Assembly (NCBI GenBank): GCA_037179515.1
Contig: JAXCGZ010005692.1
Coordinates: 1-64,000 of the forward strand
DNA length: 64,000 bases
Source: Halocaridina rubra
Taxonomy: Eukaryota; Arthropoda; Malacostraca; Decapoda; Atyidae
Direction: 5' to 3'
Shown: positions 797 to 44,015 of the stretch, in pieces
How the letters are laid out: each line of letters starts with the position of its first letter
Numbering within the stretch: the first letter of the stretch is position 1
The notes under the pieces: generated by a model
Told to the model about the DNA's origin: nothing
What the model saw: only the letters and a program-made list of their open reading frames with translations
Database searches by the model: none
Translations under genes and position numbers: made by a program

Positions 797-810
797 ACAC
801 AAATAATGAA

Positions 811-3800
811 ATGATTAATACTTGTGCAGAGAAATTAGTCAGTAAGGGTTCAGTAAATAGTGGGTCAAATAACTGGGAGTCTAAGGATAAGAACCATTTG
901 TTACATAGAACAAATATTAACAAAAAGAATAGCCACAAGAAGGGTGAAGCTAGAGAAAGTTTAAAAGTATATTATACAAATAGCCGTAGTTTAGGTAACA
1001 AGATAGAAGAACTGAGAGCCATAGTATGTAGTGAGAGACCGGATATAATATGCATTAGTGAAAGTTGGATTAAATTAGAAAGCAAACACCTTAAAGCTGA
1101 GTACATAATTACAGGATATAAACTTTATAATGCTGATCATAGTGCAGATAAAAGAGGGGGAGGGGTAATTATGTATATTAAAGATAGCCTCAGAAGCTGC
1201 ATTAAGTCTGGAATTAAGACAAATCTAAATTCAGAAACCTTATGGGTTGAAATTAAAAATAATATAGAAAGTCTAGTTATAGGAGTAGTCTACAGACCAC
1301 CTGATCTAGATAATATAGAGTCGCAAGTTATATACGATGAAATTTCTAAAGTGAGCAGGTCAAATAGAGTTTGCATTGTAGGCGATTTTAATTTTAGACA
1401 TATTAACTGGGAAACCATAACAGGTGATAGTAGCTCTAAGGAGTTTTTGGAAGTAGTAGAAGACAATTTCCTTTCTCAGCATGTACATGAAGCAACACGG
1501 GGGGTGAATACACTAGATTTAGTTCTTAGTAATAGAGAGAATATGGTTACAAATTTAGAAGTTGGTGAAAAATTGGGCAACAGTGACCATGATTCCATTA
1601 GATTTAACATAATTTTCAAGGAAACTATAAAGGAAAATAAGAATATTGTTCCAAACTTTAGAGCAGGAGATTTTGAGGGCTTAAAAACTAAATTATCTAA
1701 TGAGGTATGGGAAGGGATTTCTGGGGTACAGATGTGGGTAGTTAATCCAGCAGGTCAGGTCGCAGGTAGCGGATTACCCCGAAATTTGGGTACCACATGC
1801 CAAGGATTATCACAAGATAAGATCAATACATTAAATTCTCTCACAGGAAAGAACAGCAGCCCGTCAGTTAATATAAATTTGGATGAGGAATATAACAATT
1901 TTGTCATGACTCTTAAGAATAGTCAGAGAGACTATATTCCCATGAAACATTGCAGATCAAGAAAAAATGACCCTAAATGGATGAACAATAGAATAAAGAA
2001 TCTTATAGGTATTAAAAGAGGAATATACAGGAAACTAAAAAGAGGTGAAGAGCAGGTGAGGCAGCAATATATACAGTTAAACAGGGAAGTTAAAAAGATA
2101 GTTAGAGAGTCGAAAAGAAAATACGAAGTTTGAATAGCAGGAGAAGCTAAAGAAAATCCTAAAGGGTTTTATCAACACTATCAAACAAAATTTAAGGAAA
2201 AAGTCGGACCAATTGAAGTAGCCAATGGCCATATCACAGATGACGATAAAGTGATGTGTACATGTTTAAATGATTATTTCTTATCTGTATTTACAAATGA
2301 AAACTTGGAAAATATTCCGGAAGTAGAATCCATTTACAGAGACAGTCCCGATAATATACTTAGTTCAATAAATATTACGAGAGAGGAGGTAATAAAAGAA
2401 ATAGATAAATTAAAGGCTCATAAATCTCCGGGACCTGATGGAATATATGCTAGAATATTAAAGGAATGCAAGGAAGAGCTTAGTTGTCCTCTAACTGCAT
2501 TATTTAATAATTCAATAAAATTAGGATCGGTACCCATGGAGTGGAAATTGGCAGATGTGGTACCAATATTTAAAAAAGGAGAACGTGTTAAAAAGAATAA
2601 TTATAGGCCGGTAAGTTTAACGTCAACAGTGGGTAAGATTCTAGAATCCATAATTACAAATAAAATAAGGGCACATCTAGAATTACACAGACTGATAAAG
2701 CTTTCACAACACGGGTTTCTTAAGGGTTTTTCGTGCCTTACAAACTTACTGTCTTTTTATTCAGAAGTTTACGAGGCAGTAGATTGTGGCAAAGAATATG
2801 ACACAATATATCTAGATTTTAGCAAAGCTTTTGATAGAGTTCCTCACAAAAGATTAGTTAAAAAGCTGGAAGCTCATGGTATAGGAGGAGCTGTGCTCAG
2901 ATGGATCAAACAATGGTTAAAAGACAGAAAACAGAGGGTTTGCATAAATGGAGAGAAATCAGAGTGGGGCTCGGTTACAAGCGGGGTACCACAAGGCTCG
3001 GTACTGGGTCCTCTATTATTCATCGTATATCTGAATGATCTGGATTCGGATATCAGTAGTAACCTAAGTAAATTCGCAGACGACACTAAAATAGGTAGAA
3101 CTATAAATGGAAAAGAAGACATTCATGCTTTACAGGAAGATCTAAATAGATTATCTGAATGGTCGGACAAATGGCAAATGGAATTTAATGTTGAAAAATG
3201 TAAAGTAGTTAAAATGGGTACTATAAAAGACAATACTAGTTATAAGCTAAATAACCATGAAATCATGAGTTCTCAGTGTGAAAGGGATTTGGGAGTTCTT
3301 GTGAGTAGTAGTCTTAAGCCAAGAGAGCAATGCACAGCAGTCAGAAATAAAGCAAACAGAATTTTAGGATTTATCTCAAGAAGCGTCAGCAATAGGACGG
3401 AAAAAGTTATTTTGCAGCTCTATCTTGCATTAGTTAGGCCCCATTTAGATTATGCTGTGCAATTCTGGTCACCCTATTATAGAATGGAAATTGAATCCTT
3501 GGAGAGAGTGCAACGAAGAATGACCAAGATGATACACAATATCAGAAATCTACCATATGAGGACAGATTAAAAAAACTTAATCTACATTCTCTAGAGAGG
3601 CGAAGAGTTAGGGGGGATATGATTGAAGTGTATAAATGGTTTAAAGGGATTAACAAGGGAGATATTAATAAAGTTTTAAAAATTCATGATCAAACCAGAA
3701 CTCGTAACAATGGATTTAAGCTTGATAAATTTAGGTTCAGAAGGGAAATTGGTAAAAATTGGTTTGGTAATAGAGTAGCTGATGCATGGAACAAGCTTCC

Positions 3801-3882
3801 TAGTATGATAGTAAATGCCAATACCTTAGACACCTTCAAATGTAGATTAGATAGACATATGACAGAGGTAGGGTGGGTATGA
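811..3882 (+). pseudogene. LINE family A ORF2, endonuclease-reverse transcriptase with one in-frame stop
   Basis: The frame is open from ATG 811 to TGA 3880-3882 except for one TGA at 2131-2133. Copy A3 has CGA at that codon, so this is a CpG-to-TpG nonsense change. The N-terminal APE-type endonuclease shows YTNSRS, CISESWI (catalytic Glu), GVVYRPP, VGDFNF and GNSDHDS. A linker follows, then the reverse transcriptase: KSPGPDGI, LDFSKAFDRVPH (motif A), [19 protein letters not shown] at 3073-3087 (catalytic Asp pair) and a thumb/C-terminal domain ending near TEVGWV. Endonuclease and polymerase motifs all look intact. The product would nick target DNA and prime reverse transcription there. Confidence 0.92.
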
Positions 3883-4031
3883 ATAGGTTAGTGCTTATTA
3901 GAAAAATCATAAAAAGAAAAACAGAATAAATAAGTAGAGTAGAATAGAATAGGTTAGACATGCTGAAAATACAATTCAAAAATGGAGCTGCCTCGTGTGT
4001 GCCAGTAGGCATGTTGCAGTGTCCTCTATTC

Positions 4032-4047
4032 TTATGTTCTTATGTTC
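4032..4047 (+). repeat. 3'-terminal TTATGTTC repeats of LINE A1
   Basis: Two tandem TTATGTTC units end the element. A2 has the same end, A3 has three units with one variant, and A4 has a shortened version. Terminal short repeats of this kind are the recognised 3' tail of CR1-clade LINEs and help place the true element boundary. Confidence 0.8.
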
Positions 4048-5503
4048 AGACAAATAATGTATATACTGCAGCTAGCAAAGAAAATAAAGAATCATTCATA
4101 GATTCACGTCCTTTATCACGTAACATCTATCTTGGAATCTCTCGGAAATCGAATAATAATCTCAATGGCGGAGTAGGGGACAAAACAAAAATAAAACAAA
4201 CTCGGCATTTCAACCATATCTGGGCAGGTGGAGAATTACCTTCTCATCCATATCCCTCACTAGATATTGCAACAGCGCATCACCTCCCATAAATACACTC
4301 TGATATGGCATGCAGAAGGACCTGGCAGAGCAGGGGAACGATCCTCGCAGACTCCCCAATCATGCTTCCTAACGGTGCTTTCTGCGATTTCACCCCCTAG
4401 AGCAACCCCCCCCATTATACCCCTATTACACTCATTATACTCATTCGCTCACATGCGCTCACATTCAAACTTGCATTCCCTTTCTCTCTGTCTATGGAAA
4501 ATTTCCCATCCCTTACCCCGATAAAGGAGAGTAAAGGTGAAATCTCGGTTGGGCCGCACGGTCACAGACTGCCTCACCAGTCCTAGGTCCCATTCTAACG
4601 AACAAACAAACATTCTACTCCCTTGAAGCTACGTTTGGGTGACACTGAAAAACCTTCCCTATTCTAGGACAGCACAAACTACTCTAATTTACTCTTACTT
4701 TCACCTGCATAGCGTGAAATTAAAAAAAACTCATCTCTAACTAATATCACGAAATTTCTTATTCTTCAGAAAAAACATGCCACACACGTATCGTAAGATT
4801 AATTTCCCATCATCATAACACAAAAAGAACGATCTGTCATTTATGTCTTTCTTTCGCTAAAACATTCCTCCCGTGGAGAAAAAAACAAAAAAAAAAGAAA
4901 AAAAACTTAAAAACAGGCGCAATCTTAACACTCTATTTCTTACGCTTTAAGAAATTTATATAAAAATGATTTTACACGTACTTTAAAATATCAAAGCTCA
5001 GTACAATTACTACAGATTTACAATAACGAGGTTGGGGGATCGAATGGTCACTTCCACATTCCTTTCTCGAAAACCACACGTGTTCTAAGTAAAACCTTAA
5101 AAGCAGATGCACGTATATTTCTCACTATAATTCTTACGCTTTAGAAATTAATAGACTGTAATAGTGATTTCACGTGCATTAAATTTGTCAATTAAAAATC
5201 GATACATTCGCGTTCTTAAAATTCAATCTAGGCATTAATACAAATAAATGGAACACACTTCCAACGCAAATTCTTTATATTACTCAAATTATAACAAAAA
5301 TGGAGTTTATTACTGCTTATAGCTATTAGTACAAATTATCCATGTTAGTAATGGGTACAGAAATTCTACTTTTATCAACTTATTAAGCGCCACACCCCTT
5401 ATAAGCGGGTTGGCTGAGTCAAAGCATAACTACAAGATAAAATGGCGGCGTCCACCGACCTCAATTTCTTTTACTAATTGTCCCATTACTCACTGGATAC
5501 AGA
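4048..5503. other. No gene seen; AT-rich unique sequence with a weak internal duplication
   Basis: No coding region is supported. Two segments, about 4936-4990 and 5128-5185, resemble each other (both contain TTCTTACGCTTTA, then a stretch ending in CACGTRC-TTAAA), suggesting an old duplication about 190 bp apart. Confidence 0.5.
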
Positions 5504-6900: not shown

Positions 6901-7996
<1,096 letters not shown>

Positions 7997-8014
7997 CCAC
8001 ACACATACACACAC

Positions 8015-9062
8015 AATCCTTCAATTTTTTGTCAGAGAGACACCATGGCTTCAGAGATGGAAACTAATTTATTAGAATTTAATGATGAGGTATGTCGAAT
8101 ATTACAGGAAAGAGAGGGCTGGGCAGATTCCATATTCCTACACTTTCAGAAACTTTCAGAAAGTATTTGATACGTTCCCACACAGGAGCCCTATAATTAA
8201 GCAATGGCTAGAATAGGTGGAAATGTCTTGGAACGGATAAAAACTTACTTAAAAGGAAGGGAACAGAGGGTTAGAGTAACACAGTGTCTGAATGGAGAAA
8301 GGTTAGTAGTGGAGTTCAACTGTTCAGCTTTAGGGCCACTTTTGCTCCTTGTATATGTAAATGATCTACCAGAATCTGTGAATTCATTCATGAATATATA
8401 TGCAGATGATGGAAAGACTGTGAAGAGAGTAAGAGATGAGAACAATGGTAGAGAACTTCAGGAAGACCTAAATAGTCTGCATGAGTGGTCAGAAAAGTGG
8501 CTAATGAAATTCAATACCTTTAAATGTAAGGTAACGAGTATGGGTACAAGTACAAGAAAGCTTTCTTAGCAAATGTAAGGACAAAGCTTTAATATGCAGC
8601 CCCCTTTTGGAATCTACACTTGAAAAAGCACATAGCTAAGCTGAAAAGGGTTCAAAGACATGCAACGAAAATTATGCCAGAAATACGCAATCTCAGTTAT
8701 GAGAGGCTGAAGGAATTAGACTACCATTAATCGACACTTGAAGAATGAGGGGGATATGGTTATGACATAGTTGATAGAGATCGATATATTAATATGGCTG
8801 GCACTAGAACTAGAAGTCCAAGTTTGAAGCTTCGTAAGAAAACTTTGCAGGATGTAAGGAAATACTTTTTTTTTAGTGTAAGAGTATTTGATGATTGGAA
8901 TTCGCTAAGCGAGGGGGTAGTTAATACCAACTTAATCCATAGTTTTAAGGAAACGTATGATAAGTATCACTAAGTACAAAAAAGGAACCGAAAAAGGGAT
9001 GGGGAGTTAAATGCCTGAGGCTCTTTTTCGTAAGAACAATTACGTAATTACACTATAGTGAT
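8015..9062 (+). mobile_element. LINE family B copy B1, 5'-truncated and degenerate
   Basis: Matches the reverse transcriptase to 3' end of family B. It starts with AATCCTTCAATTTTTTGTCAG directly after CA repeats, where the copies in the array read through to upstream coding sequence. It contains a recognisable [21 protein letters not shown] segment at 8204 and an FADD equivalent changed to YADDG. There are deletions and frameshifts. The 3' end reads AATTACGTAATTACACTATAGTGATTACACACACA, so it finishes in the family's ATTACA tail and runs into CA repeats again. Confidence 0.85.
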
Positions 9063-9500
<438 letters not shown>

Positions 9501-10014
9501 CTATTTTGGGCCAATTTTCATTCTTTATTCCCCATTATTCACTTCACTTCCATACACCTTCAACTTTTGTTCCGATTTCTACATTCCATTCCCTCCTTTA
9601 GCTAATTTGCTCTACATTCCACCTTTCCTTAGTCTTTACTTTCTCTCTCCTTCTTATTTCTATTAACTTATATCTTCTATTTCTTACAATTTTTTATTTT
9701 TTTCCAATTTACTCCCCAATTCTTCATTTTTATTACTTCCATCTTTTATTCTTATTTCCTATTTTTAATACCTTTGGAAAAAATTTCTCTATTTCTCACC
9801 CCTTCCTCATCCTGCAATTCGCCATTTTTCTTACTAACAACCTTTATTCCTATCCTATATAACATGACCTCCCTTGGTCAATTTCTTCTATTTCTGACCC
9901 TTTCTCAGTCCTTTTTCTTCCCATTCTTCGTTCTTGTACCCCTTCATCTACTATTTCAAAAGTTCCCACTTTCACCCTCCAATTCCCCAATTTCACTTTT
10001 ACAAATTTGCGTTT

Positions 10015-10166
10015 CCATTTGAAGGATATGAACAAAAATAGACTGGAGATGGGGGACTGAGATTGGATGTCTCTCTTAAAGCCCCGCAGCGGGATCGAAC
10101 TCGCGAAATGTCAAACTCATTTCTTCCCACCTTGCACGCCCTACCATTGAGCAAACACGGCCCCTT
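10015..10166 (-). mobile_element. SINE family A copy
   Basis: Minus-strand tRNA-like head with A box (GCTCAATGGTAGGGCGTGC) and B box (GAGTTCGATCCCGC), then the family body (a diverged form of GGAAGGGCATCCAGCCTTAA) and a tail matching CCCCATTTGAATG. It interrupts the polypyrimidine tract. Confidence 0.8.
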
Positions 10167-10635
10167 AAATTTCTCATTTTCATACTTCTTCATCTATTTC
10201 TTTAATTCCTCCTATCATTCTCTCCTCACTAACTTTCTTTAACTTCTAATCTAACTTATTCCAGATATACCATCTCCTCACTAACATCAAAATATCTCAG
10301 TTCTCTACCTCTTCCTTATTTACTTCTACCTTTTTCTATCCTTCTCTCTTCCATACACTCCTATTTCCTGGCTAATTACTTCTAGCTCTACCTTTCTTGT
10401 CTTCTCTCTAAACCCAAATTCCTCACTTCAATTCCCTTCCCTCATCTATTCCTACCCTCCTCTACCTTACTCTCCTTCCCCTTCTTCTTACTCTACCCTT
10501 CCTTACTAATTCCTTCAAATCCCAACCCCTAATTCTTCAATTCCATATCCCTTCTTCTCCCTAACCCCCACAATTTTTCATCTTTCTACCCCTCTCCCAT
10601 CTATTCCTACCCTCTTCCAAACTCTTTCCTCACTC

Positions 10636-12779: not shown

Positions 12780-13156
12780 TTCTCAATGCAATACAATATT
12801 ACGAGTTTCCTAAAATAAGCAAAAAAAAAAAAATAGCATACTGATGCAACTAATCATAGATACAAGTATTCTAAACGTATGAACAAAAGAAGAAAAAATC
12901 CTAAACAATTATATAAAAACACAGATAAAAAAACACAAGCATGCATGTGACAAACGTCTTTTAAAAACAATACATGTAATGTCTCTGTATATTACTGTCA
13001 ATGCCCAAGGTCATATGACTATAAAGAAAATGTGCAAATGGACACCGTAATCATAACATGCAATTTTCTTCATAAAGTTCGCTTGATTTGTACTCCAATT
13101 TATAACAAGAAAAAATATTCATATTGGATTAAGGGACTTTAGGAAAATTCTCGTGT

Positions 13157-13157
<1 letters not shown>
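12775..13157. other. No gene seen
   Basis: AT-rich unique sequence between a (TA)n tract and the (TG)n tract that borders the LINE array. Confidence 0.5.

Positions 13158-13220
<63 letters not shown>
13158..13220 (+). repeat. (TG)n tract at the 3' end of LINE B2
   Basis: About 31 TG units on the plus strand, that is (CA)n on the sense strand of B2, touching the element's 3' tail with no spacer. Confidence 0.95.
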
Positions 13221-13224
<4 letters not shown>

Positions 13225-15666
13225 TACCTAATTGTGACGGAAAAGAGCCCCAAGTTCGTAACTCCCCGTCTCCTAGTCGGTTCCATTTTCTACTTAGTGA
13301 TACTTATCATACTTGTCCTTAAAATTATGGATTGAGTTAGCATTAACTACCTCCTCGCTTAGCCAATTCCAATCATCAACTACTCTTACACTAAAAAAGT
13401 ATTTCCTTACATCCTGCAAAGAACTTTTCTTACGAAGCTTCAAATTATGACCTCTACTTCTAGTGCCAGCCATATTAAAAATATCGATCCTATCGATCCC
13501 TATCCACTCTGTCATAATCATTAAGGCATTTAAAAACCGTCACCATAACCCCCCCTCATTCGTCTAGCTTCGAGTGATGGTAAGTCTAAATTCCTCAGCC
13601 CCTACTCGTAACTGACAGTGTGCATTTCTGGCACCAGTTTCGTGACATGTTTTGGAACTTCTTCCAGCTTAACTACGTGCTATTTCAATTGTGGACTCCA
13701 AATGAGGGCTGCATATTCGATCTTTGGCCTCACATAGGTTACATAAATATTTCTGAACATTTCCTTCTCCATGTGCCTGAAGACTACCCTTATATTTACT
13801 GAGAAAGCATATGCCACCCTTACTGTGTCAGTTATATGCATTTCTGGAGACAATCTGCCAGTATGTTTACTCCTAGATCTCTCTCATTATCTGTCTTTTG
13901 AAGTTCTGCTCCTGTAATTGACTAGTCAAGCTTGGGCCTTCTTGAACTTGTATCCACTCTCATTACCTTACATTTAGAAGTACTGAATTTCATTAGCCAC
14001 TTTTCTGACCACTCATGCAGACTATTTAGGTCTTCCTGAATTTCTCTACCAGTGTTCTCGTTCCTTACTTACTTCACAATCTTTGCATTATCTGCATACA
14101 TATTCAGGAATGAATTTAAAGACTCTGGTAGATCATTTACATATACAAGGAACAAAAGTGGCCCTAAAACTGAACCCTGTGGTACTCCAATACTAACCCT
14201 TCTCCATTCAGACACTGAGTGTCGTACTCTAACCCTATGTTCCCTTCCTTCTGAGAAAGTTTTTATCCCCTCCAAGACATTTCCACCTATTCTCGCCATT
14301 GCTTGCATTTCTTAATAAGTCTCCCATGTGGGACCGTATCAAATGCCCTCTGGAAGTCTAGGAATATGCAATCTGCCCAACCCTCTCTTTCCTGTAATAA
14401 TCGGCTTACTTCATCATAAAATTTTAATAGCTGCTGATCTACCTTCTCTGAAGCCATGTTTTCTCACTGACATAAAGCTGAAAGATTCCAGGTGAAGAGA
14501 GATGTGTTTTCTTAGTAGTTTCTCCATAACTTTGTACACTATGCTGTTCTAGGAAACAAGTCTATAGTTTAGAGCTGTATCCCTCTTTCCCTTTTGAAGA
14601 TAGGTACCACGTTCGCTTGTTTCCAGCATCTTGGAATCTCCCCTGATTCCAGCGACGATTCGTATATGATACATAGTGCTGCTGATTTTGATTTAGCACA
14701 TTTCTTAAGTACATGAGGGGATATATCATCAGGATCTGTTGCTTTACGGACATCTAACTCCATCAGCACATTGCATACCTCCGTGGTTGAAAAGATGATG
14801 TTCTCTAACACAGGACCATGAACTCCTAGCTCTGATCTGAGGAGATGAGGTATTTTCTGCTGTAAATACTGATTGTAACTCCTTGTTCAATTTTTTGCAG
14901 ATTTCTTCATCTGTCTCAGTGATGCTTCCATCCGCTTTCTTTAGATTTAAAACCTGTTCTTTGAACTTTGGCTTTCCTCTGATAAATCTGTGGAAAAAAT
15001 TGGGATTTTCTTTAGCCTTCCTGATGATATCCCTTTCATAGTCTCTCTCTGCCTCTCTTCTTTTACTTAAGTAATCATTTCTTGCTCTTTTATAAGTCTG
15101 CCAGACGTTTGTGCTTTTTTTCCTCCTATACCTTTTCCGGCATTTGTCTCTCCACTTCTTACCTCTCTTACACTCATTATTACACCATTTCTCTCTGGTA
15201 AGAATAACTCCTATTTTGGTGAAAGGTATGCAGCAATCTACTATTTTCCCATATTCCTCACAAAAGATGTCGTACATTTCTTGTACAAATTCGTTGTTAA
15301 ATAAGGTCCTCCAGTCAATAACTGCAAAAAGCTCATTTATTTTAATGTAATCTCCTTTCGGATAGTTCCTCCTCGTGACCTCAGTGCCTCTACTTTTAGG
15401 TGGAACATCTTTGATGATATACTCCATCAACAACAAACAGTGGTCACGCTTTCCAATTGGTGGTTCATACTCAATTTTTCCAATATCCAACACATTTTCT
15501 GTGAATACTAGATCAAGCAGCGATGGCTCATCTCCACCCCTGGCCCTCGTTGGTTCCAGTACATGTAAGTGCAGGAAATTCCCTTGTACACAGTCTAGGA
15601 ATCTTGCGCGGAATGAGTCTTCCCCAATGTGTGGATCAACATTTATCCGATCTATCTCTCCATGAT
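13221..15666 (-). mobile_element. LINE family B copy B2, longest copy (endonuclease C-terminus to 3' end)
   Basis: Minus-strand copy of about 2.4 kb, the most complete family B member here. From the 5' side it encodes the APE endonuclease C-terminus (LDLVFTEN at about 15500, KRDHCLL in place of SDH), a basic linker (GKKWRDKCRKRYRRKKS), the start of the reverse transcriptase (RKATDPDDISPH), [38 protein letters not shown] in place of FADD, and the thumb to DKYH. Frameshifts near 14830 and 14560 plus mutated SDH and FADD make it inactive. It is older than B6-B10. Confidence 0.88.
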
Positions 15667-16173
15667 TGTGATTACCTAATTGTGTTTACGGGAAAGAGCC
15701 CAAAGCTCGTATCTTCCCGTCTCCTGATCGGTTCCATTTTATACTTAGTGGTACTTATCATACCTGTCCTTAAAACTATTGATTGAGATAGCATTAACTA
15801 CCTCCTCGCTTAGCCAATTCCAATTATCAACTACTCTTACACTGAAAAAGTATATCCTTACATCCTGCAAAGAAGTTTTCTTACGAAGCTTCAAACTAAG
15901 ACCTCTAGTTCTAGAGCCTGCCATATCAAAATATCGATCCCTATCCACTCTAACATAACCATGAAGGAATTTAAAGACTGTCACCACATCGCCCCTCAAT
16001 CTTCTAGCTTCGAGTGATGGTAAGTCTAATTCCCTCAGCCTCTCATCATAACTGAGATTACGTATTTCTGGCACCGGTTTCGTGGCATGTCTTTGAACTT
16101 TTTCAAGCTCAGCTATGTGTTTTTTCAAGTGCGGATTCCAAAAGGGGGCTGCATATTCGAGTATTGGCCTCAC
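15667..16173 (-). mobile_element. LINE family B copy B3, 5'-truncated
   Basis: About 500 bp, from MRPILEYAAPFWNPHLKKH to the 3' end. One intact frame at 15745-16173. Its 3' tail (one ATTACCTAATTGT unit) abuts the 5' end of B2 directly. Confidence 0.9.
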
Positions 16174-16174
16174 G

Positions 16175-16466
16175 GTGTGTGATTACCTAATTGTGATTAC
16201 CTAATTGTGTTTACGGGAAAGAGCCCAAAGCTCGTATCTTCCCATCTCCTGATCGGTTCCATTTTATACTTAGTGATACTTATCATACCTGTCCTTAAAA
16301 CTATGGATTGAGATAGCATTAACTACCTCCTCGCTTAGCCAATTCCAATTATCAACTACTCTTACACTGAAAAAGTATTTCCTTACATCCTGCAAAGAAG
16401 TTTTCTTACGAAGCTTCAAACTATGACCTCTAGTTCTAGAGCCAGCCATATCAAAATATCGATCCC
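16175..16466 (-). mobile_element. LINE family B copy B4, 5'-truncated
   Basis: Only about 290 bp of the 3' end, with two GATTACCTAATTGT tail units and GTGTGT joining B3. Truncated inside the RDRYFDMAGS codons. Confidence 0.9.
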
Positions 16467-17802
16467 TGTGATTACCTAACTGTGTTTACGGGAAAGAGCC
16501 CAAAGCTCGTATCTTCCCGTCTCCTGATCGGTTCCATTTTTAGACTTAGTGATACTTATCGTACCTGTCCTTAAAACTATGGATTGAGATAGCATTAACT
16601 ACCTCCTCGCTTAGCCAATTCCAATTATCAACTACTCTTACACTGAAAAAGTATTTCCTTACATCCTGCGAAGAAGTTTTCTTACGAAGCTTCAAACTAT
16701 GACCTCTAGTTCTAGAGCCAGCCATATCAAAATATCGATCCCTATCCACTCTATCATAACCATGAAGGAATTTAAAGACTGTCACCATATCCCCCCTTAC
16801 TCTTCTAGCTTCGAGTGATGGTAAGTCTAATTCCCTCAGCCTCTCATCATAACTGAGATTCCGTATTTCTGGCACCAGTTTCGTGGCATGTCTTTGAACT
16901 TTTTCAAGCTTAGCTATGTGCTTTTTCAAGTGCGGATTCCAAAGGGGGCTGCATATTCCAGTTTTGGCCTCACATAGGTTACATAAATATTTCTGAACAT
17001 TTCCTTGTCCATGTGCCTGAAGGCTACCCTTACATTTGATAAGAATGCATATGCTGCCCTTACTATGCCATTTATATGTATTTCTGGAGACAAATCTGCC
17101 AGTATGTTTACTCCTAGATCTCTCTCATTTTCTGTCTCTTGAAGTTGTACTCCAGCCACCGAGTAGTCAAGCTTGGGCCTTCTTGCACTTGTACCCATTC
17201 TCATTACCTTACATTTTGAAGTATTGAATTTCATTAGCCACTTTTCTGACCACTCATGCAGATTATTTAGATCCTCCTGAGTTCTCTACCATTGTTCTCG
17301 TTTTTTACTTTCTTCACAATCTTTGCATCATCTGCAAACATATTCATGAATGAATTTACAGACTCTGGTAGGTCATTTACATATACAAGGAACAAAAGTG
17401 GCCCTAAAACTGAACCCTGTGGAACTCCACTACTAACTCTTCTCCATTCAGACACTGAGTGTCTTACTCTAACCCTCTGTTCCCTTCCTTCTAAGTAAGT
17501 TTTTATCCATTCCAAAACATTTCCACCTATTCTAGCCATTGATTGCAGCTTCCTAATAAGTCTCCCACGTGGAACAGTGTCAAACGCTTTCTGGAAGTCT
17601 AGGAATATGCAATCTGCCCAGCCCTCTCTTTCCTGTAAGATTTGGCTTACCTCATCATAAATTTCTAATAAGTTTGTTACTGTTGATCTACCTTCTCTGA
17701 AGCCATGTTGCCTCACTGACAAAAAGTTGAAGGATTCCAAGTGAAGAGATATGTTTCCTTAGTAGTTTCTCCATAACTTTTAGTAGTTTCTCCATAACTT
17801 TT
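16467..17802 (-). mobile_element. LINE family B copy B5, 5'-truncated
   Basis: About 1.3 kb starting upstream of the [16 protein letters not shown] motif. FADDA and [13 protein letters not shown] are intact. A one-base deletion near 17279 shifts the frame after NNGREL, and another lies near 16940. Its 5' end carries a 22-bp tandem duplication (17759-17802), then (TG)8 and (GA)n. Confidence 0.9.
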
Positions 17803-17805
17803 AGT

Positions 17806-17819
17806 AGTGTGTGTGTGTG

Positions 17820-17896
<77 letters not shown>

Positions 17897-17930
17897 GAGA
17901 GAGAGAGGGAGAGAGAGAGAGAGAGAGAGA
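17806..17930 (+). repeat. (TG)8 then (GA)n microsatellite
   Basis: Short TG tract at the 5' border of LINE B5, followed by about 55 GA units with minor interruptions. Confidence 0.93.
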
Positions 17931-17998
17931 TTACGCAAAAGGGAAAAAATTTACAGAGGTATTCATCTATTATATATCACCCTCATACAGAATTAAAT

Positions 17999-18312
17999 AA
18001 TAATAATAATAATATAATAATAATAATATAATAATAATAATAATAATAAAATAATAATAATAATAATAATAATAACTATTATCATGACAACAATATAATA
18101 ATATCAGCTCTCCAGCCAAATTTTTCATTTCCAATTCCAAAACCACCTTTGATATATAAAATATAGTAATTAGCCTTCATATAACTAATTAATTATGTAG
18201 TATCTGCACAATACATTAGTTTTTTAAAATTCAACAATCTAAAGATGCTGACATATTAAGCTTAGATTACTGAATTTTTAAGGTCCTTATTATTATTATA
18301 TTATTATTATTA

Positions 18313-18353
<41 letters not shown>

Positions 18354-18375
18354 TTATTATTATTATTATTACTCT
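17999..18375 (+). repeat. (TAA)n and (TTA)n tracts in inverted orientation
   Basis: TAA repeats at about 17999-18075 and TTA repeats at about 18287-18372 flank about 210 bp of AT-rich sequence. The arms are complementary and could pair. Confidence 0.85.
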
Positions 18376-18561
18376 ATTGGCAACAAAAGTAGCACTTAAT
18401 ATATTTATGCTATGTTAATGCGCTATATATTACGTATAATGTCGATTACATATATTATTCTATATGCTATGTATAATGTCTATATTTATTACATTCATGA
18501 TAATTCACTATGGTATGTGATATCCATTCTCTGATCGCCAACACATACCTGTGTTACTCTG

Positions 18562-18566
<5 letters not shown>
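18376..18566. other. No gene seen
   Basis: AT-rich sequence with repeated TATGCTATGTATAATGTC-like phrases (18410-18485). Confidence 0.4.
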
Positions 18567-18634
<68 letters not shown>

Positions 18635-18638
18635 TGAG

Positions 18639-18706
<68 letters not shown>

Positions 18707-18709
18707 ATT

Positions 18710-18752
<43 letters not shown>
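18567..18752 (+). repeat. Compound (AT)n(GA)n microsatellite
   Basis: (AT)n to 18625, then GA tracts interrupted by GTGAGTATATATA and TATTATTTTATTATTT. Confidence 0.95.
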
Positions 18753-18754
<2 letters not shown>

Positions 18755-18835
18755 AAGATACAGGTCTAAACAATGACATTATCAGGGAGAGATCTCGAGT
18801 TAAATCTGCTACTATTGGTTATCTTAACCTAGCTG

Positions 18836-18998
18836 TCTCACATTAGTCTCCACTCGAATGCGTGGGTCGCAGACAGTTTAGAGCTGCGGTATTAAGGGCT
18901 GGGGCCATTCCTTAAACCCCGCGGCGGGATCGAACCTGCATTTGTCAGGCTCGTTACTTCCCTACACGTGCACTCTACCACTGAGTTATCGCGTACCA
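18836..18998 (-). mobile_element. SINE family A copy
   Basis: Minus-strand tRNA-like head: A box TAACTCAGTGGTAGAGTGC, B box GGTTCGATCCCGCCGCGGG. The body and tail follow, with CATTCGAGTGGAG in place of CATTTGAATGGGG. Not a functional tRNA gene, because it continues into the SINE body. Confidence 0.85.
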
Positions 18999-19184
18999 TT
19001 AACCTACTAAAACTCATGGGGAGGATTTAAATCCATATTTCAAAGCAAGCTCAGAAGGTGACATTATTCTGCAACGATAGGAATGTTGTCCAAACATGGA
19101 TTGGAATGGTTGTATATACAGGGCAAAGTTAAGAGTGGTAGACAATACTATATTAGTCACTGACAGTCACAACAAATAGCAGTT

Positions 19185-19187
<3 letters not shown>

Positions 19188-19250
<63 letters not shown>
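19188..19250 (+). repeat. (TG)n tract at the 3' end of LINE B6
   Basis: About 31 TG units abutting the B6 tail GATTACCTAATTGT without spacer. Confidence 0.95.
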
Positions 19251-19252
<2 letters not shown>

Positions 19253-20394
19253 TTACCTAATTGTGATTACCTAATTGTGTTTACGGGAAAGAGCCCAAAG
19301 CTCGTATCTTCCCGTCTCCTGATCGGTTCCATTTTAGAATTAGTCATACTTATCATACCTGTCCTTAAAACTATGGATTGAGATAGCATTAACTACCTCC
19401 TCGCTTAGCCAATTCCAATTATCAACTACTCTTACACTGAAAAAAGTATTTCCTTACATCCTGCGAAGAAGTTTTCTTACGAAGCTTCAAACTATGACCT
19501 CTAGTTCTAGAGCCAGCCATATCAAAATATCGATCCCTATCCACTCTATCATAACCATGAAGGAATTTAAAGACTGTCACCATATCCCCCCTCACTCTTC
19601 TAGCTTCGAGTGATGGTAAGTCTAATTCCCTCAGCCTCTCATCATAACTGAGATTGCGTATTTCTGGCACCAGGTTCGTGGCATGTCTTTGAACTTTTTC
19701 AAGCTTAGCTATGTGTTTTTTCAAGTGCGGATTCCAAAAGGGGGCTGCATATTCAAGTTTTGGCCTCACATAGGTTACATAAATATTTCTGAACATTTCC
19801 TTGTCCATGTGCCTGAAGGCTACCCTTAAATTTCATAAGAATGCATATGCTGCCCTTACTATGCCATTTATATGTATTTCTGGAGACAAATCTGCCAGTA
19901 TGTTTACTCCTAGATCTCTCTCATTTTCTTTCTCTTGAAGTTGTACTCCAGCCACCGAGTAGTCAAGCTTGGGCCTTCTTGCACTTGTACCCATTCTCAT
20001 TACCTTACATTTTGAAGTATTGAATTTCATTAGCCACATTTCTGACCACTCATGCAGATTATTTAGATCCTCCTGAAGTTCTCTACCATTGTTCTCGTTT
20101 TTTACTTTCTTCACAATCTTTGCATCATCTGCAAACATATTCATGAATGAATTTACAGACTCTGGTAGGTCATTTACATATACAAGGAACAAAAGTGGCC
20201 CTAAAACTGAACCCTGTGGAACTCCACTACTAACTCTTCTCCATTCAGACACTGAGTGTCTTACTCTAACCCTCTGTTCCCTTCCTTCTAAGTAAGTTTT
20301 TATCCATTCCAAAACATTTCCACCTATTCTAGCCATTGATTGCAGCTTCCTAATAAGTTTCCCATGTGGAACAGTGTCAAACGCTTTCTGGAAG

Positions 20395-20398
<4 letters not shown>
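19251..20398 (-). mobile_element. LINE family B copy B6, 5'-truncated
   Basis: Two GATTACCTAATTGT tail units, then the reverse transcriptase from [11 protein letters not shown] to the C-terminus. FADDA is intact. A small change near 19830 splits the frame into 19833-20336 and 19422-19808, and an extra A near 19440 disrupts the last codons. Its 5' end breaks at GTCTA and joins (TG)n. Confidence 0.92.

Positions 20399-20430
<32 letters not shown>
20399..20430 (+). repeat. (TG)16 between LINE B6 and B7
   Basis: Links the truncated 5' end of B6 to the 3' tail of B7. Confidence 0.95.
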
Positions 20431-20431
<1 letters not shown>

Positions 20432-21012
20432 TTACCTAATTGTGATTACCTAATTGTGTTTACGGGAAAGAGCCCAAAGCTCGTATCTTCCCGTCTCCTG
20501 ATCGGTTCCATTTTTAGACTTAGTGATACTTATCATACCTGTCCTTAAAACTATGGATTGAGATAGCATTAACTACCTCCTCGCTTAGCCAATTCCAATT
20601 ATCAACTACTCTTACACTGAAAAAGTATTTCCTTACATCCTGCAAACAAGTTTTCTTCCGAAGCTTCAAACTATGACCTCTAGTTCTAGAGCCAGCCATA
20701 TCGAAATATCGATCCCAATCCACTCTATCATAACCATGAAGGAATTTAAAGACTGTCACCATATCCCCCCTTACTCTTCTAGCTTCGAGTGATGGCAAGT
20801 CTAATTCCCTCAGCCTCTCATCATAACTGAGATTGCGTATTTCTGGCACCAGTTTCGTGGCATGTCTTTGAACTTTTTCAAGCTTAGCTATGTGCTTTTT
20901 CAAGTGCGGATTCCAAAAGGGGGCTGCATATTCGAGTTTTGGCCTCACATAGGTTACATAAATATTTCTGAACATTTCCTTGTCCATGTGCCTGAAGGCT
21001 ACCCTTACATTT
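20431..21012 (-). mobile_element. LINE family B copy B7, 5'-truncated
   Basis: About 580 bp. Intact C-terminal frame 20520-20987 (MDKEMFRNIYVTY to DKYH). Two tail units at the 3' end. Truncated within the codons for SNVRVAF. Confidence 0.92.
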
Positions 21013-21095
21013 GTGTGATTACCTAATTGTGATTACCTAATTGTGTTTACGGGAAAGAGCCCAAAGCTCGTATCTTCCCGTCTCCTGATCGGTTC
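21013..21095 (-). mobile_element. LINE family B copy B8, 83-bp tail-only copy
   Basis: Contains only GTGT, two GATTACCTAATTGT units and the last ~50 bp of 3' UTR up to GATCGGTTC. It sits between B7 and a (TG)n(TGCG)n tract. Confidence 0.92.
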
Positions 21096-21097
21096 TG

Positions 21098-21129
<32 letters not shown>

Positions 21130-21132
21130 TGC

Positions 21133-21170
<38 letters not shown>
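21096..21170 (+). repeat. (TG)n(TGCG)n(TG)n between LINE B8 and B9
   Basis: TG tract with six TGCG variants in its centre. Confidence 0.95.
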
Positions 21171-21172
<2 letters not shown>

Positions 21173-22287
21173 TTACCTAATTGTGATTACCTAATTGTGT
21201 TTACGGGAAAGAGCCCAAAGCTCGTATCTTCCCGTCTCCTGATCGGTTCCATTTTAGACTTAGTCATACTTATCATACCTGTCCTTAAAACTATGGATTG
21301 AGATAGCATTAACTACCTCCTCGCTTAGCCAATTCCAATTATCAACTACTCTTACACTGAAAAAGTATTTCCTTACATCCTGCAAAGAAGTTTTCTTACG
21401 AAGCTTCAAACTATGACCTCTAGTTCTAGAGCCAGCCATATCGAAATATCGATCCCTATCCACTCTATCATAACCATGAAGGAATTTAAAGACTGTCACC
21501 ATATCCCCCCTTACTCTTCTAGCTTCGAGTGATGGTAAGTCTAATTCCCTCAGCCTCTCATCATAACTGAGATTGCGTATTTCTGGCACCAGTTTCGTGG
21601 CATGTCTTTGAACTTTTTCAAGCTTAGCTATGTGCTTCTTCAAGTGCGGATTCCAAAAGGGGGCTGCATATTCGAGTTTTGGCCTCACATAGGTTACATA
21701 AATATTTCTGAACATTTCCTTGTCCATGTGCCTGAAGGCTACCCTTACATTTGATAAGAATGCATATGCTGCCCTTACTATGCCATTTATATGTATTTCT
21801 GGAGACAAATCTGCCAGTATGTTTACTCCTAGGTCTCTCTCATTTTCTGTCTCTTGAAGTTGTACTCCAGCCACCGTGTAGTCAAGCTTGGGCCTTCTTG
21901 CACTTGTACCCATTCTCATTACCTTACATTTTGAAGTATTGAATTTCATTAGCCACTTTTCTGACCACTCATGCAGATTATTTAGATCCTCCTGAAGTTC
22001 TCTACCATTGTTCTCGTTTTTTACTTTCTTCACAATCTTTGCATCATCTGCAAACATATTCATGAATAAATTTACAGACTCTGGTAGGTCATTTACATAT
22101 ACAAGGAACAAAAGTGGCCCTAAAACTGAACCCTGTGGAACTCCACTACTAACTCTTCTCCATTCAGACACTGAGTGTCTTACTCTAACCCTCTGTTCCC
22201 TTCCTTCTAAGTAAGTTTTTATCCATTCCAAAACATTTCCACCTATTCTAGCCATTGAGTGCAGCTTCCTAATAAGTCTCCCATGTG
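21171..22287 (-). mobile_element. LINE family B copy B9, 5'-truncated with intact RT C-terminal frame
   Basis: Single open frame 21260-22255, 331 codons from [11 protein letters not shown] to DKYD, with [18 protein letters not shown] and thumb. Two tail units at the 3' side. The 5' end breaks at CCCATGT and directly meets the B10 tail. Confidence 0.93.
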
Positions 22288-23520
22288 TGTGTGATTACCT
22301 AATTGTGATTACCTAATTGTGTTTACGGGAAAGAGCCCAAAGCTCGTATCTTCCCGTCTCCTGATCGGTTCCATTTTAGACTTAGTCATACTTATCGTAC
22401 CTGTCCTTAAAACTATGGATTGAGATAGCATTAACTACCTCCTCGCTTAGCCAATTCCAATTATCAACTACTCTTACACTGAAAAAGTATTTCCTTACAT
22501 CCTGCAAAGAAGTTTTCTTACGAAGCTTCAAACTATGACCTCTAGTTCTAGAGCCAGCCATATCGAAATATCGATCCCTATCCACTCTATCATAACCATG
22601 AAGGAATTTAAAGACTGTCACCATATCCCCCCTTACTCTTCTAGCTTCGAGTGATGGCAAGTCTAATTCCCTCAGCCTCTCATCATAACCGAGATTGCGT
22701 ATTTCTGGCACCAGTTTCGTGACATGTCTTTGAACTTTTTCAAGCTTAGCTATGTGCTTTTTCAAGTGCGGATTCCAAAAGGGGGCTGCATATTCGAGTT
22801 TTGGCCTCACATAGGTTACATAAATATTTCTGAACATTTCCTTGTCCATGTGCCTGAAGGCTACCCTTACATTTGATAAGAATGCATATGCTGCCCTTAC
22901 TACGCCATTTATATGTATTTCTGGAGACAAATCTGCCAGTATGTTTACTCCTAGATCTCTCTCATTTTCTGTCTCTTGAAGTTGTACTCCAGCCACCGAG
23001 TAGTCAAGCTTGGGCCTTCTTGCACTTGTGCCCATTCTCATTACCTTACATTTTGAGGTATTGAATTTCATTAGCCACTTTTCTGACCACTCATGCAGAT
23101 TATTTAGATCCTCCTGAAGTTCTCTACCATTGTTCTCGTTTTTTACTTTCTTCACAATCTTTGCATCATCTGCAAACATATTCATGAATGAATTTACAGA
23201 CTCTGGTAGGTCATTTACATATACAAGGAACAAAAGTGGCCCTAAAACTGAACCCTTTGGAACTCCACTACTAACTCTTCTCCATTCAGACACTGAGTGT
23301 CTTACTCTAACCCTCTGTTCCCTTCCTTCTAAGTAAGTTTTTATCCATTCCAAAACATTTCCACCTATTCTAGCCATTGAGTGCAGCTTCCTAATAAGTC
23401 TCCCATGTGGAACAGTGTCAAACGCTTTCTGGAAGTCTAGGAATATGCAATCTGCCCAGCCCTCTCTTTCCTGTAAGATTTGGCTTACCTCATCATAAAA
23501 TTCTAATAAGTTTGTTACTG

Positions 23521-23522
<2 letters not shown>
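22288..23522 (-). mobile_element. LINE family B copy B10, 5'-truncated with the longest intact RT frame
   Basis: An open frame covers the truncated element from TVTNLLEFYDEV through [15 protein letters not shown] (motif A), FADDA and the C-terminus at 22382. The apparent His-Thr N-terminus in this frame is read from the adjoining (CA)n tract, not from the element. Two tail units at the 3' end. Confidence 0.93.

Positions 23523-23552
<30 letters not shown>
23523..23552 (+). repeat. (TG)n between LINE B10 and B11
   Basis: About 15 TG units joining the truncated 5' end of B10 to the divergent tail of B11 (TTCACCAATCC). Confidence 0.93.
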
Positions 23553-23553
<1 letters not shown>

Positions 23554-23848
23554 CACCAATCCTATCTGTGCTCACGGGAGAGCCAAGTGCTTTTAATTAG
23601 TTGTCTCTAGAGAGGCTTCATTTTTTACTCGTTGACACTTACCATATCTGTCCTTAAAATAATTATGAATGCAGTTAGCATTGACTGAATCATCGCTTAG
23701 CGAATTCCAAGTATCAACTATTTTTTACACTATTAAAGAAAAAGAAATAAATAAACAGCAGCAAGGAAGTTTTCTTAAGAAGATTCAATCTATCACATCT
23801 AGATCTAGAGCAACACGTATCAGTCTCCCTCCCTAACCACTCTGTCAA
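23553..23848 (-). mobile_element. LINE family B copy B11, old divergent 3' fragment
   Basis: Aligns with the last ~290 bp of family B (CTGTCCTTAAAATAATTATGAATG, AAGTTTTCTTAAGAAGATTC) but with many differences and a small A-rich insertion. Ends in (AAT)n on the 5' side. Confidence 0.75.
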
Positions 23849-23916
<68 letters not shown>

Positions 23917-27175: not shown

Positions 27176-27300
27176 GCAGTACCTGCATAGTACGAGTACA
27201 GCTAGTTTATACGTGCGCACGTGCACTCTTTTATTGCCAAAGCTCCAGGGAGTCGGGACCTCAAGGGTGGGAGCTAGACTTTTATGCACACACACACACA

Positions 27301-27870
27301 AATGTAAGGGTAGCACTCAGGCACATGGAAAAGGAAATGTTCAGAAATATCTATGTAACCTATGTGAGGCCAAAGCTTGAATATGCAGCCCCCTTTTGGA
27401 ATCCGCACTTGAAAAAGCACGTAGTTAAGTTGGAAAAAGTTCAAAGATATGCCACGAAACTGGTGCCAGAAATACGTAATCTCAGTTATGATGAGAGGCT
27501 GAGGGAATTAAACTTACCACCACTCGAAGCTAGAAAATGGAGGGGGATATGGTGAAGGTTTTTAAATTCCTTCATGGTTATGACAGAGTGGATAGGGATC
27601 GATATTTTGATATGGCTGGCACTAGAACTAGAGGTCATAGTTTGGAGCTCCATAAGAAAAGTTCTTTGCAGGATGTAAGGAAGTACTTTTTTAGTGTAAG
27701 AATAGTTGATCATTGGAATTCGCTAAGCGAGGAGGTAGTTAATTCTATCTCAATCAATAGTTTTAAGGACAAGCATGATAGGTATCACTAAGTACAAAAT
27801 GGGACCGATCAGGAGACGGGAAGTTATGAGCTTGGGGCTCTTCCCCGTAAGCACAAATAAGTAATCACAC
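27301..27870 (+). mobile_element. LINE family B copy B12, 5'-truncated
   Basis: Starts right after CACACACACACACA with the NVRVALRHMEKEMFRNIYVTY codons and runs to the 3' end, finishing in AAATAAGTAATCACACACAAAC. A one-base change near 27540 splits the frame (26932-27555 and 27537-27791). The CA tracts lie on both sides, on the sense strand. Confidence 0.9.
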
Positions 27871-31877: not shown

Positions 31878-33437
31878 GCTCTAACTGCATTATTTAATAA
31901 TTCAATAAAATTAGGATCGGTACCCATGGAGTGGAAATTGGCAGATGTGGTACCAATATTTAAAAAAGGAGAACGTGTTAAAAAGAATAATTATAGGCCG
32001 GTAAGCTTAACGTCAACAGTGGGTAAGATTCTAGAATCCATAATTGCAAATAAAATAAGGGCACATCTAGAATTACACAGACTGATAAAACTTTCACAAC
32101 ACGGGTTTCTTAAGGGTTTTTCGTGCCTTACAAACTTACTGTCTTTTTATTCAGAAGTTTACGAGGCAGTAGATTGTGGCAAAGAATATGATACAATATA
32201 TCTAGATTTTAGCAAAGCTTTTGATAGAGTTCCTCACAAAAGATTAGTTAAAAAGCTGGAAGCTCATGGTATAGGAGGAGCTGTGCTCAGATGGATCAAA
32301 CAATGGTTAAAAGACAGAAAACAGAGGGTTTGCATAAATGGAGAGAAATCAGAGTGGGGCTCGGTTACAAGCGGGGTACCACAAGGCTCGGTACTGGGTC
32401 CTCTATTATTCATCGTATATCTAAATGATCTGGATTCGGATATCAGTAGTAACCTAAGTAAATTCGCAGACGACACTAAAATAGGTAGAACTATAAATGG
32501 AAAAGAAGACATTCATGCTTTACAGGAAGATCTAAATAGATTATCTGAATGGTCGGACAAATGGCAAATGGAATTTAATGTTGAAAAATGTAAAGTAGTT
32601 AAAATGGGTACTATAAAAGACAATACTAGTTATAAGCTAAATAACCATGAAATCATGAGTTCTCAGTGTGAAAGGGATTTGGGAGTTCTTGTGAGTAGTA
32701 GTCTTAAGCCAAGAGAGCAATGCACAGCAGTCAGAAATAAAGCAAACAGAATTTTAGGATTTATCTCAAGAAGCGTCAGCAATAGGACGGAAAAAGTTAT
32801 TTTGCAGCTCTATCTTGCATTAGTTAGGCCCCATTTAGATTATGCTGTGCAATTCTGGTCACCCTATTATAGAATGGAAATTGAATCATTGGAGAGAGTG
32901 CAACGAAGAATGACCAAGATGATACACAATATCAGAAATCTACCATATGAGGACAGATTAAAAAAACTTAATCTACATTCTCTAGAGAGGCGAAGAGTTA
33001 GGGGGGATATGATTGAAGTGTATAAATGGTTTAAAGGGATTAACAAGGGAGATATTAATAAAGTTTTAAAAATTCATGATCAAACCAGAACTCGTAATAA
33101 TGGATTTAAGCTTGATAAATTTAGGTTCAGAAGGGAAATTGGTAAAAATTGGTTTGGTAATAGAGTAGCTGATGCATGGAACAAGCTTCCTAGTAGGATA
33201 GTAAATGCCAATACCTTAGACACCTTCAAATGTAGATTAGATAGACATATGACAGAGGTAGGGTGGGTATGAATAGGTTAGTGCTTATTAGAAAAATCAT
33301 AAAAAGAAAAACAGAATAAATAAGTAGAGTAGAATAGAATAGGTTAGACATGCTGAAAATACAATTCAAAAATGGAGCTGCCTCGTGTGTGCCAGTAGGC
33401 ATGTTGCAGTGTCCTCTATTCTTATGTTCTTATGTTC
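31878..33437 (+). mobile_element. LINE family A copy A2, 5'-truncated with intact RT frame
   Basis: Starts inside the reverse transcriptase at CTCTAACTGCATTATTTAAT, equivalent to about 2490 in A1, and ends with the same TTATGTTC repeats. An uninterrupted frame runs to 33272 (448 codons from MEWKLADVV). It includes [26 protein letters not shown] and FADDT. Differences from A1 are only scattered single bases, so insertion was recent. Confidence 0.94.
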
Positions 33438-34667: not shown

Positions 34668-35345
34668 TACCAGATCAAGTGGTATAGCCTAGTTTCCTAC
34701 AAATTTATGAGTTAATTACCAAATCGGCAAGCTTTATTGCCTAATCCCCAGCAAACTTTTGGGTTAATTACCAAGTGACAAAGTTTTATAGCCTAGTCTC
34801 AAACTGATTAATGAGTTATTTACCACGTGATCAAGTTTAATAGCCTAGTCTCAAGCACACTTATGAGTTAATTACTAAGTCATCAAACTCTATGGCCTAG
34901 TCTCCACAAACTTTTGAGTTAACTGCCAAGTGATGAAGTTTCATTGCCTAGTCTCAAGAGAACTTATAAGTTAATTACCAAGTGACAAAGTTTTACAGCC
35001 TAGTCTCAAGCAAATTTGTGTCACTTACCAAGTGATCAAGTTTTTATCACCTAGTCTCAAGCTAACTTAAGATTTAATTACCAAATAATCAAGCTTTATA
35101 ACCTAATCTCCATCAAATGTGTGAGTTAATTACCAGGCAATCAAGTTAATAGCCTTACCTCAAGCAAAATTATGCATTCAATACTAAGTGATCAAGGTTT
35201 ATGGCCTCATCCCAAGCAAAATTTTGAGTTAATTATAAAGTGATTAAGTTCTATACCCTAGTCTCCAGTAATATTTATAGCTAATTACAAAGTTATCAAG
35301 TTTTCTAGCCTAGTTTTTATATTCTAGGCTCTGGCAAACTTATGA
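34668..35345 (+). repeat. ~52-bp minisatellite, about 12 diverged units
   Basis: Unit is GAGTTAATTACCAAGTGATC, AAGTTTTATAGCCTAGTCTC, AAGCAAACTTAT. Units differ by 10-25% and small indels. It has no coding potential. Confidence 0.9.
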
Positions 35346-38700: not shown

Positions 38701-38794
38701 TAATTATGTACTCAGCTTTAAGGTGTTTGCTTTCTAATTTAATCCAACTTTCACTAATGCATATTATATCCGGTCTCTCACTACATACTATGGT
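35762..38794 (-). mobile_element. LINE family A copy A3, 5'-truncated, 3.0 kb
   Basis: Minus-strand copy from the endonuclease region (equivalent to about 1015 in A1) to a tail of three TTATGTTC-like units. ORF1 is absent. Endonuclease catalytic motifs VGDFNF and GNSDHDS and the whole reverse transcriptase are intact. Confidence 0.94.
35934..38794 (-). pseudogene. LINE A3 ORF2 with a 4-bp deletion
   Basis: The endonuclease frame runs from 38794 to about 37710, where GTTA (present in A1) is deleted near 37709-37712. The frame then ends at TAG (37679-37681). The reverse transcriptase frame reopens and continues to 35934, including 543 codons from 37565. At the A1 stop codon position A3 has CGA. 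FADDT and motif A are intact. Confidence 0.92.

Positions 38795-42962: not shown

Positions 42963-44015
<1,053 letters not shown>

Follow-up and report, generated by a model that had tools for sequence, protein, structure and literature searches.

Head-to-tail stacks of a CR1-type LINE in Halocaridina rubra point to preferential insertion into (CA)n microsatellites

How does a retrotransposon come to lie in a row of copies, all on one strand, each cut off at a different point and joined to the next through a short tail unit, a CA repeat or nothing at all? The question is raised by a stretch of 64,000 nucleotides (hereafter the window) of contig JAXCGZ010005692.1, here called C4884, in the genome assembly of the atyid decapod Halocaridina rubra (1.18 Gb, 21,031 contigs), which contains a head-to-tail array of a long interspersed nuclear element (LINE) that we call LINE-B. 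A reading made from the letters alone had described ten copies of it in the same orientation. We checked the array by BLAST of the window copies against the window, by junction tables and by annotation against a full-length reference of 4887 bp (C1:118526-123412). The explanation that we prefer, to which we give a probability of about 0.7, is that LINE-B is a CR1-type LINE which uses target-primed reverse transcription to insert preferentially into (CA)n, in one orientation, and that each insertion restores the target.

The array, on the minus strand at 13,219-23,850, was borne out, its ten members being nine clean LINE-B copies, spanning 13,219-23,523, and one diverged, old relative (Table 1). 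In the sense order it begins with this relative (23552-23850) and ends with the copy B2 (13219-15667), and it is divided in two by an interval at ~17,800-19,190, with the (CA)n of both sub-arrays at its borders. Each clean copy is 5'-truncated at a reference position of its own, nine distinct positions in all, exactly as the sequence-only reading had it. The same reading held that each tail meets the next 5' end with no foreign DNA. This stands for the spacers between stacked copies, which consist of the tail unit ATTAGGTAATCACA with or without (CA)n/(CACG)n (up to ~70 bp); it needs amending for two junctions, at 16467 and 15667, that have no spacer at all, and for a 21-bp direct repeat at 17780. 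This repeat, present in 2.4 copies (17759-17808), lies at the 5' junction of B5 (16467-17780), before the (CA)n. The array is of mixed age, because B2 is 10.0% diverged from the column majority and the other eight clean copies only 0-2.8%; the best other match of B2, among 40 candidates scored, is 89% identical.

Nearly all young copies carry a tail unit ending in CACA, so that the 3' flanks alone prove nothing on the choice of target; in particular, at least one such unit was found in all but one of 52 young copies (two units in 37, one in 13, three in one and none in one). For the 5' side, we collected 71 copies with a readable flank, dropping satellites, N-flanked copies, those at locus edges and very short pieces. 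Copies at least 93% identical to the reference were considered young (53 of the 71), the remainder (18, below 93%) old. A CA-sense run was present within 25 bp 5' of 34 of the 53 young copies and a TG run next to one, compared to 2.0% for CA and 2.0% for TG at random positions outside elements. These 34 CA flanks versus one TG point to the target repeat at both ends in a fixed orientation. When another copy's tail directly 5' was also counted, 45 of the 53 copies qualified (18 of 23 in the stretch of C1 alone), which supports the self-stacking, microsatellite-targeted LINE proposed earlier; the check proposed with it was whether most copies elsewhere lack CA flanks, and in this sample they do not. 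Under a strict rule, applicable to 47 young copies, both flanks were of CA type in 22, and 14 were so on one side only or had a CACG run. By contrast, family A, a second LINE of the window, showed neither CA nor TG in any of its six usable rows (of eight) under the same flank rule as the 53.

The alternative that survives best is that LINE-B recognises its own 3' tail, as Zepp targets its own copies, and not (CA)n generally, the 5' CA being mostly the tail of the neighbour. In fact, 41 of the 53 young copies are stacked, i.e., they have a same-strand LINE-B match no more than 150 bp upstream (28 with CA and none with TG), and many spacers are just a tail unit with a few CA. On the other hand, the 12 young copies without such a match include six with CA and one with TG, and where neither copy nor tail lies upstream (n = 11, one of the 12 being removed for a tail word) five begin in a CA-sense repeat and one in TG (p = 1.4e-6 against 2%). 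This part of the evidence, independent of stacking, is small. Moreover, young copies also lie 5' of older ones, where the older copy's tail is absent, as for B3 before B2 and on C3. We consider recognition of the tail only to be unlikely.

Several observations weigh against a preference for (CA)n in general. The CA found 5' of stacked copies may simply be the neighbour's tail, and targeting outside the arrays comes down to few copies; six of the 11 with neither copy nor tail upstream are not CA. Neither CA nor own tail was found 5' of eight of the 53 young copies: by eye, two of them join the body of another copy, four lie in other DNA, one is preceded by a 3' end of older type, and in the last the CA is at least 26 bp away. 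Under the strict rule neither flank was of CA type in 11 of 47, and only six of the 18 old copies had CA or own tail (5 CA, 2 TG). Target-site duplications are not discernible within (CA)n, and the sample was composed in part of C2 and C3 pieces picked by their exact 3' ends, with N-flanked copies dropped.

Microhomology averaged 1.30 bp over 23 junctions with clean CA, compared to 0.65 bp in simulations (P = 0.0008); three of these junctions have the same truncation point as another one in the set, two of the three probably through local duplication. Microhomology in LINE integration has been discussed for mammals (PMC2881922). Two truncation points were found at more than one site: position 4315 is common to the window copies 20441-21013 and B12 (27299-27869), and 4803 to L022:2417-2501 and L023:1708-1791. 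Their repetition at different sites, each beginning with CA, suggests microhomology hot spots.

LINE-B is abundant well beyond the window. Its exact 35-bp 3' end occurs 34,934 times genome-wide (17,461 + 17,473; reversed control 0) and its 5' start (22 bases, one ambiguity) 1368 times. It covers 39.9% of the non-N bases in C1:1-200000, a stretch taken without regard to LINE-B, versus 16.4% of the window; part of the former is a 530-bp satellite derived from the element. With this satellite excluded, C1:1-200000 has 26 copies with a 3' end, and for 22 of them another copy lies on the same strand no more than 150 bp away. When the 34 C1 pieces were placed at random, the corresponding number averaged 1.3 and never exceeded 10 over 1000 trials, so that the stacking is not due to chance. 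In the first 100 listed occurrences of the exact 3' end (C1-C5), successive ones share a strand in 36 of 37 pairs spaced by no more than 5.5 kb, compared to 11 of 21 at 5.5-15 kb and 23 of 37 beyond 15 kb. The head-to-tail layout recurs on C1, C2, C3 and C4884, and several separate same-strand clusters are found within single contigs (C1-C4).

Such stacks could originate from one event or from many. The mean identity is 0.9689 for neighbouring young copies (20 pairs) and 0.9651 for other pairs (970 pairs); being no more alike than distant pairs, most neighbours are independent copies. Two neighbour pairs, 0.994 and 0.998 identical, look like local duplicates. Private changes differed at p < 0.01 in five of 39 stacked pairs, the upstream copy being older in four and the downstream one in the fifth (a 164-bp piece). 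Among the window copies, 47 private changes were counted over 1194 bp of B2 and two over 1198 bp of B5, which is not adjacent to it (p = 2e-12); for the adjacent pair B3/B2 the difference gave p = 0.027. On C3, an old copy (8611-10370, ~9%) lies between young copies at 0.4% and 1.3-1.6%. Old copies beside or between young ones indicate that successive insertions, on either side of older copies, built up some of the arrays at least. The earlier proposal that each new copy enters the CA tail of an earlier one is thus right in part, since B2 and the old C3 copy lie 3' of younger ones. The strict form of this rule, in which a new copy enters only an earlier tail, is ruled out by the same two copies.

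A different origin of the rows would be template jumping, in which the reverse transcriptase (RT), on reaching the truncated end of its RNA template, switches to the 3' end of a second RNA and so lays down a head-to-tail concatemer in one event. Two results speak for it and count against successive insertion: in 34 of the 39 stacked pairs the two copies do not differ significantly in age, and in 28 of them all the spacer is no longer than 27 bp, a length expected under template jumping too. In addition, at C1:126431 a nearly full-length 5' end abuts position 4847, within another copy's 3' end, a junction that fits template switching or recombination. Against it stand the old copies just mentioned (B2 in the window, 8611-10370 on C3) and the divergences of neighbours, which are uncorrelated (Spearman 0.13, p = 0.44), though their range among young copies is narrow. 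A single event of this kind for the whole window array is ruled out by the old B2 beside young copies. Stacked and independently 5'-truncated copies, as in Zepp, are therefore present, with successive insertion demonstrated in the age-discordant pairs only; template jumping is possible for age-concordant pairs with short spacers, but as the general origin of the stacks it seems to us quite improbable.

Still less credible is insertion without any choice of target, the (CA)n having grown from the element's own tail. The tail units ending in CACA and the four young copies beginning in other DNA would agree with it, but the 34 CA against one TG among the 5' flanks do not, nor does a same-strand stacking that far exceeds random placement. 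An assembly artefact, in which separate copies were wrongly joined through CA repeats, has equally little to recommend it: N runs touch several arrays and the assembly is in many contigs, but the layout recurs on four contigs with a same-strand bias at short range only, and the junctions without spacer need no bridging repeat.

Genuine tandem duplication does seem to occur elsewhere in the genome. C1:6-10293 (L001-L002) is a satellite of period 530 bp made from the 3' part of LINE-B (reference 4371-4882 plus tail), and C10313:44800-48400 (L033) contains head-to-tail units of 1458 bp, each a truncated copy plus tail with an identical start. Both look like genuine tandem duplications and were excluded from the flank and age counts. 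For the stacks themselves, tandem duplication of an ancestral copy by unequal exchange, the different ends being due to deletions afterwards, is the least probable of all, because, in spite of these satellites and the two nearly identical neighbour pairs, all nine window truncation points differ, the best match lies outside the window for all seven clean copies scored (those of 276 and 68 bp were too short) and neighbours are on average no more alike than distant copies. Simple tandem duplication is ruled out for the window array by its differing ends and outside best matches; the sequence-only reading was right to reject it there, and the two satellites limit that rejection to the window.

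Preferential insertion into (CA)n could proceed as follows. The targets would be CA-type repeats, whether these are free microsatellites or adjoin an earlier copy. The endonuclease would nick the (TG)n strand, the RNA 3' end ...ATTAGGTAATCACA(CA)n would anneal to the exposed TG primer, and cDNA synthesis would usually stop early. The end of the cDNA would then be linked to the opposite stretch of (CA)n, often via 1-4 bp of microhomology. An insertion of this kind is flanked by (CA)n at either end and so restores its own target, and stacking can continue; some stacks have become satellites, presumably via ordinary tandem duplication. What the sequences themselves show is CA-sense DNA 5' of most young copies, differing truncations, independent neighbours, mixed ages and same-strand stacking.

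As for the element itself, the reference begins with CAGTGACACACGG and ends with ...GTAAACACAATTAGGTAATCACA, followed by more tail units or a CA-type repeat. Its open reading frame (ORF) 1 and ORF2 frames are both interrupted, but an intact ORF2 frame of 972 aa is found at L030:2153-5068. In Pfam searches ORF2 matched Exo_endo_phos_2 (E = 1.1e-12), Exo_endo_phos (E = 4.7e-07) and RVT_1 (E = 1.3e-33); the frames in 13221-15680 gave no Pfam match. CR1 elements end in short tandem repeats, with no poly(A). LINE-B shares this kind of 3' end, with a tail unit of 14 bp, and has, as expected for CR1, an apurinic-type endonuclease and an RT in ORF2. Among 120 protein matches the top ones were unnamed, at no more than 65% identity, and the closest named relative was a stork protein (37% identity over 63% of the query). 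An RT tree of 58 rows placed LINE-B in a group of 36 (support 99/98), together with family A, four Mycteria (stork) rows and a fluke protein. CR1 is described as the most abundant element family in birds (PMC4316615), and from this abundance the bird proteins grouping with LINE-B are probably CR1. LINE-B would then belong to the CR1 clade, and its grouping with bird proteins speaks against the R1 clade, in a tree that contained no named R1, L2 or Jockey anchors. A scan of viral contigs for LINE-B relatives found none.

The sequence-only reading recognised no described family. Microsatellite-targeted LINEs and nested arrays are in fact known (PMC3124438, PMC4640811, PMC8226300), but a CR1-type element that both targets (CA)n and stacks as Zepp does, and on such a scale, looks new. 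Few other mobile elements are known to pile up in this way. According to the passages compared, Mino inserts into AC repeats (PMC3124438) and has the same dinucleotide microsatellite preference as LINE-B; it belongs to the R1 clade, however, whereas the LINE-B RT groups with bird LINE proteins, and those passages describe no head-to-tail stacking of Mino. Togen families of fish, of the NeSL clade, are reported as (TG)n-specific (PMC4640811), a CA/TG dinucleotide target as in LINE-B, but elements of NeSL type have a restriction-like endonuclease (PMC4640811) and LINE-B an apurinic-type domain. Zepp and ZeppL of green algae (L1 group) are described as inserting in a nested way into existing copies, with tandem arrays of mostly 3' ends and frequent 5' truncation (PMC8226300, PMC3446292). 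Their arrays resemble those of LINE-B; Zepp, however, forms one cluster per chromosome, thought to be centromeric, whereas LINE-B has no RT of the L1 group and its clusters recur in single contigs, often joined via (CA)n. SART/TRAS, GilM/GilT and Drosophila HeT-A/TART/TAHRE have telomeric repeat targets or head-to-tail same-strand arrays, as summarised in PMC10088271; these lie at chromosome ends, and LINE-B arrays inside contigs beside (CA)n. Bird CR1 and family A share with LINE-B the RT group (99/98) and short tandem 3' repeats instead of poly(A), but family A has an 8-bp TTCTTATG tail and no CA flank in any usable row, whereas LINE-B ends in its 14-bp unit with (CA)n and is mostly flanked by CA or its own tail. 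The matches listed in a literature search, judged by titles and abstract openings, included no microsatellite-specific LINE of the CR1 clade, which is not proof of absence.

Target-specific LINEs have been reported mostly from early-branched, Tx1 and R1 lineages (PMC4640811). If true, dinucleotide targeting in a CR1-type element would be of independent origin and would offer a natural system to study how a common type of endonuclease gains specificity. A wider proposal, for which we see evenly balanced odds, is that a CR1-clade LINE gained (CA)n targeting independently of R1 and NeSL, and that the regenerated target led to very many self-growing stacks, which seeded satellites, microsatellites being a renewable safe haven. 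Regeneration of the target would provide a simple rule by which a LINE could come to occupy a large part of a region, inserting close to where it already lies, and would be a source of LINE-derived satellites and long CA tracts. The arrays may also hinder assembly and marker design in the H. rubra genome.

Table 1. LINE-B copies, junctions and associated repeats in the window (ref, position in the 4887-bp reference).
Feature	Position	Strand	Basis
(CA)558 microsatellite, 1.1 kb, nearly perfect, directly 5' of old copy B1	6902-8015	+	tandem repeats
Old LINE-B copy B1, ~14% diverged, CA-sense repeat on both sides	8015-9052	+	BLAST, junction table
(CA)n sense 3' tail / target microsatellite of B2, reads (GT)n on +	13153-13221	-	tandem repeats, junction table
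B2, old LINE-B copy, ref 2433-4887, 10% diverged, 3'-most of array	13219-15667	-	BLAST, annotation
B3, ref 4380-4887, 3' end abuts B2 without spacer	15667-16173	-	BLAST, junction tables
B4, ref 4611-4887, spacer ATTAGGTAATCACACACC to B3	16192-16467	-	annotation, junction table
B5, ref 3570-4887, 3' end abuts B4 without spacer	16467-17780	-	annotation, junction table
5' flank of B5: 21-bp direct repeat, short (CA)n, then (CT)n	17759-17930	-	tandem repeats, junction table
Non-element interval, ~1.3 kb, between sub-arrays, with AT/GA/AAT repeats	17931-19186	.	repeat tables
(CA)n sense 3' tail of copy 19262-20398	19187-19251	-	tandem repeats
LINE-B copy, ref 3751-4887	19262-20398	-	annotation
LINE-B copy, ref 4315-4887	20441-21013	-	annotation
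68-bp LINE-B copy, ref 4820-4887	21028-21095	-	annotation
(CA)n/(CACG)n part of 86-bp spacer between stacked copies	21096-21171	-	tandem repeats, junction table
LINE-B copy, ref 3781-4887	21182-22287	-	annotation
LINE-B copy, ref 3667-4887, overlaps open frame with RVT_1 (E 3.9e-23)	22304-23523	-	Pfam, annotation
(CA)n joining 3' end of old relative to 5' end of copy 22304-23523	23522-23552	-	repeats, junction table
Old LINE-B relative, tenth array member, 70-78% identity depending on query	23552-23850	-	BLAST, annotation
LINE-B copy B12, ~8% diverged, 5' flank (CA)n	27299-27869	+	junction table, annotation

Two further repeats of the window were observed. Family A, the second young CR1-type LINE, is present at 301-4045, 31879-33437, 35771-38793 and 44015-45137, with copies 98.7-99.6% identical to one another, and a 52-bp minisatellite of ~12 diverged copies lies at 34673-35314.

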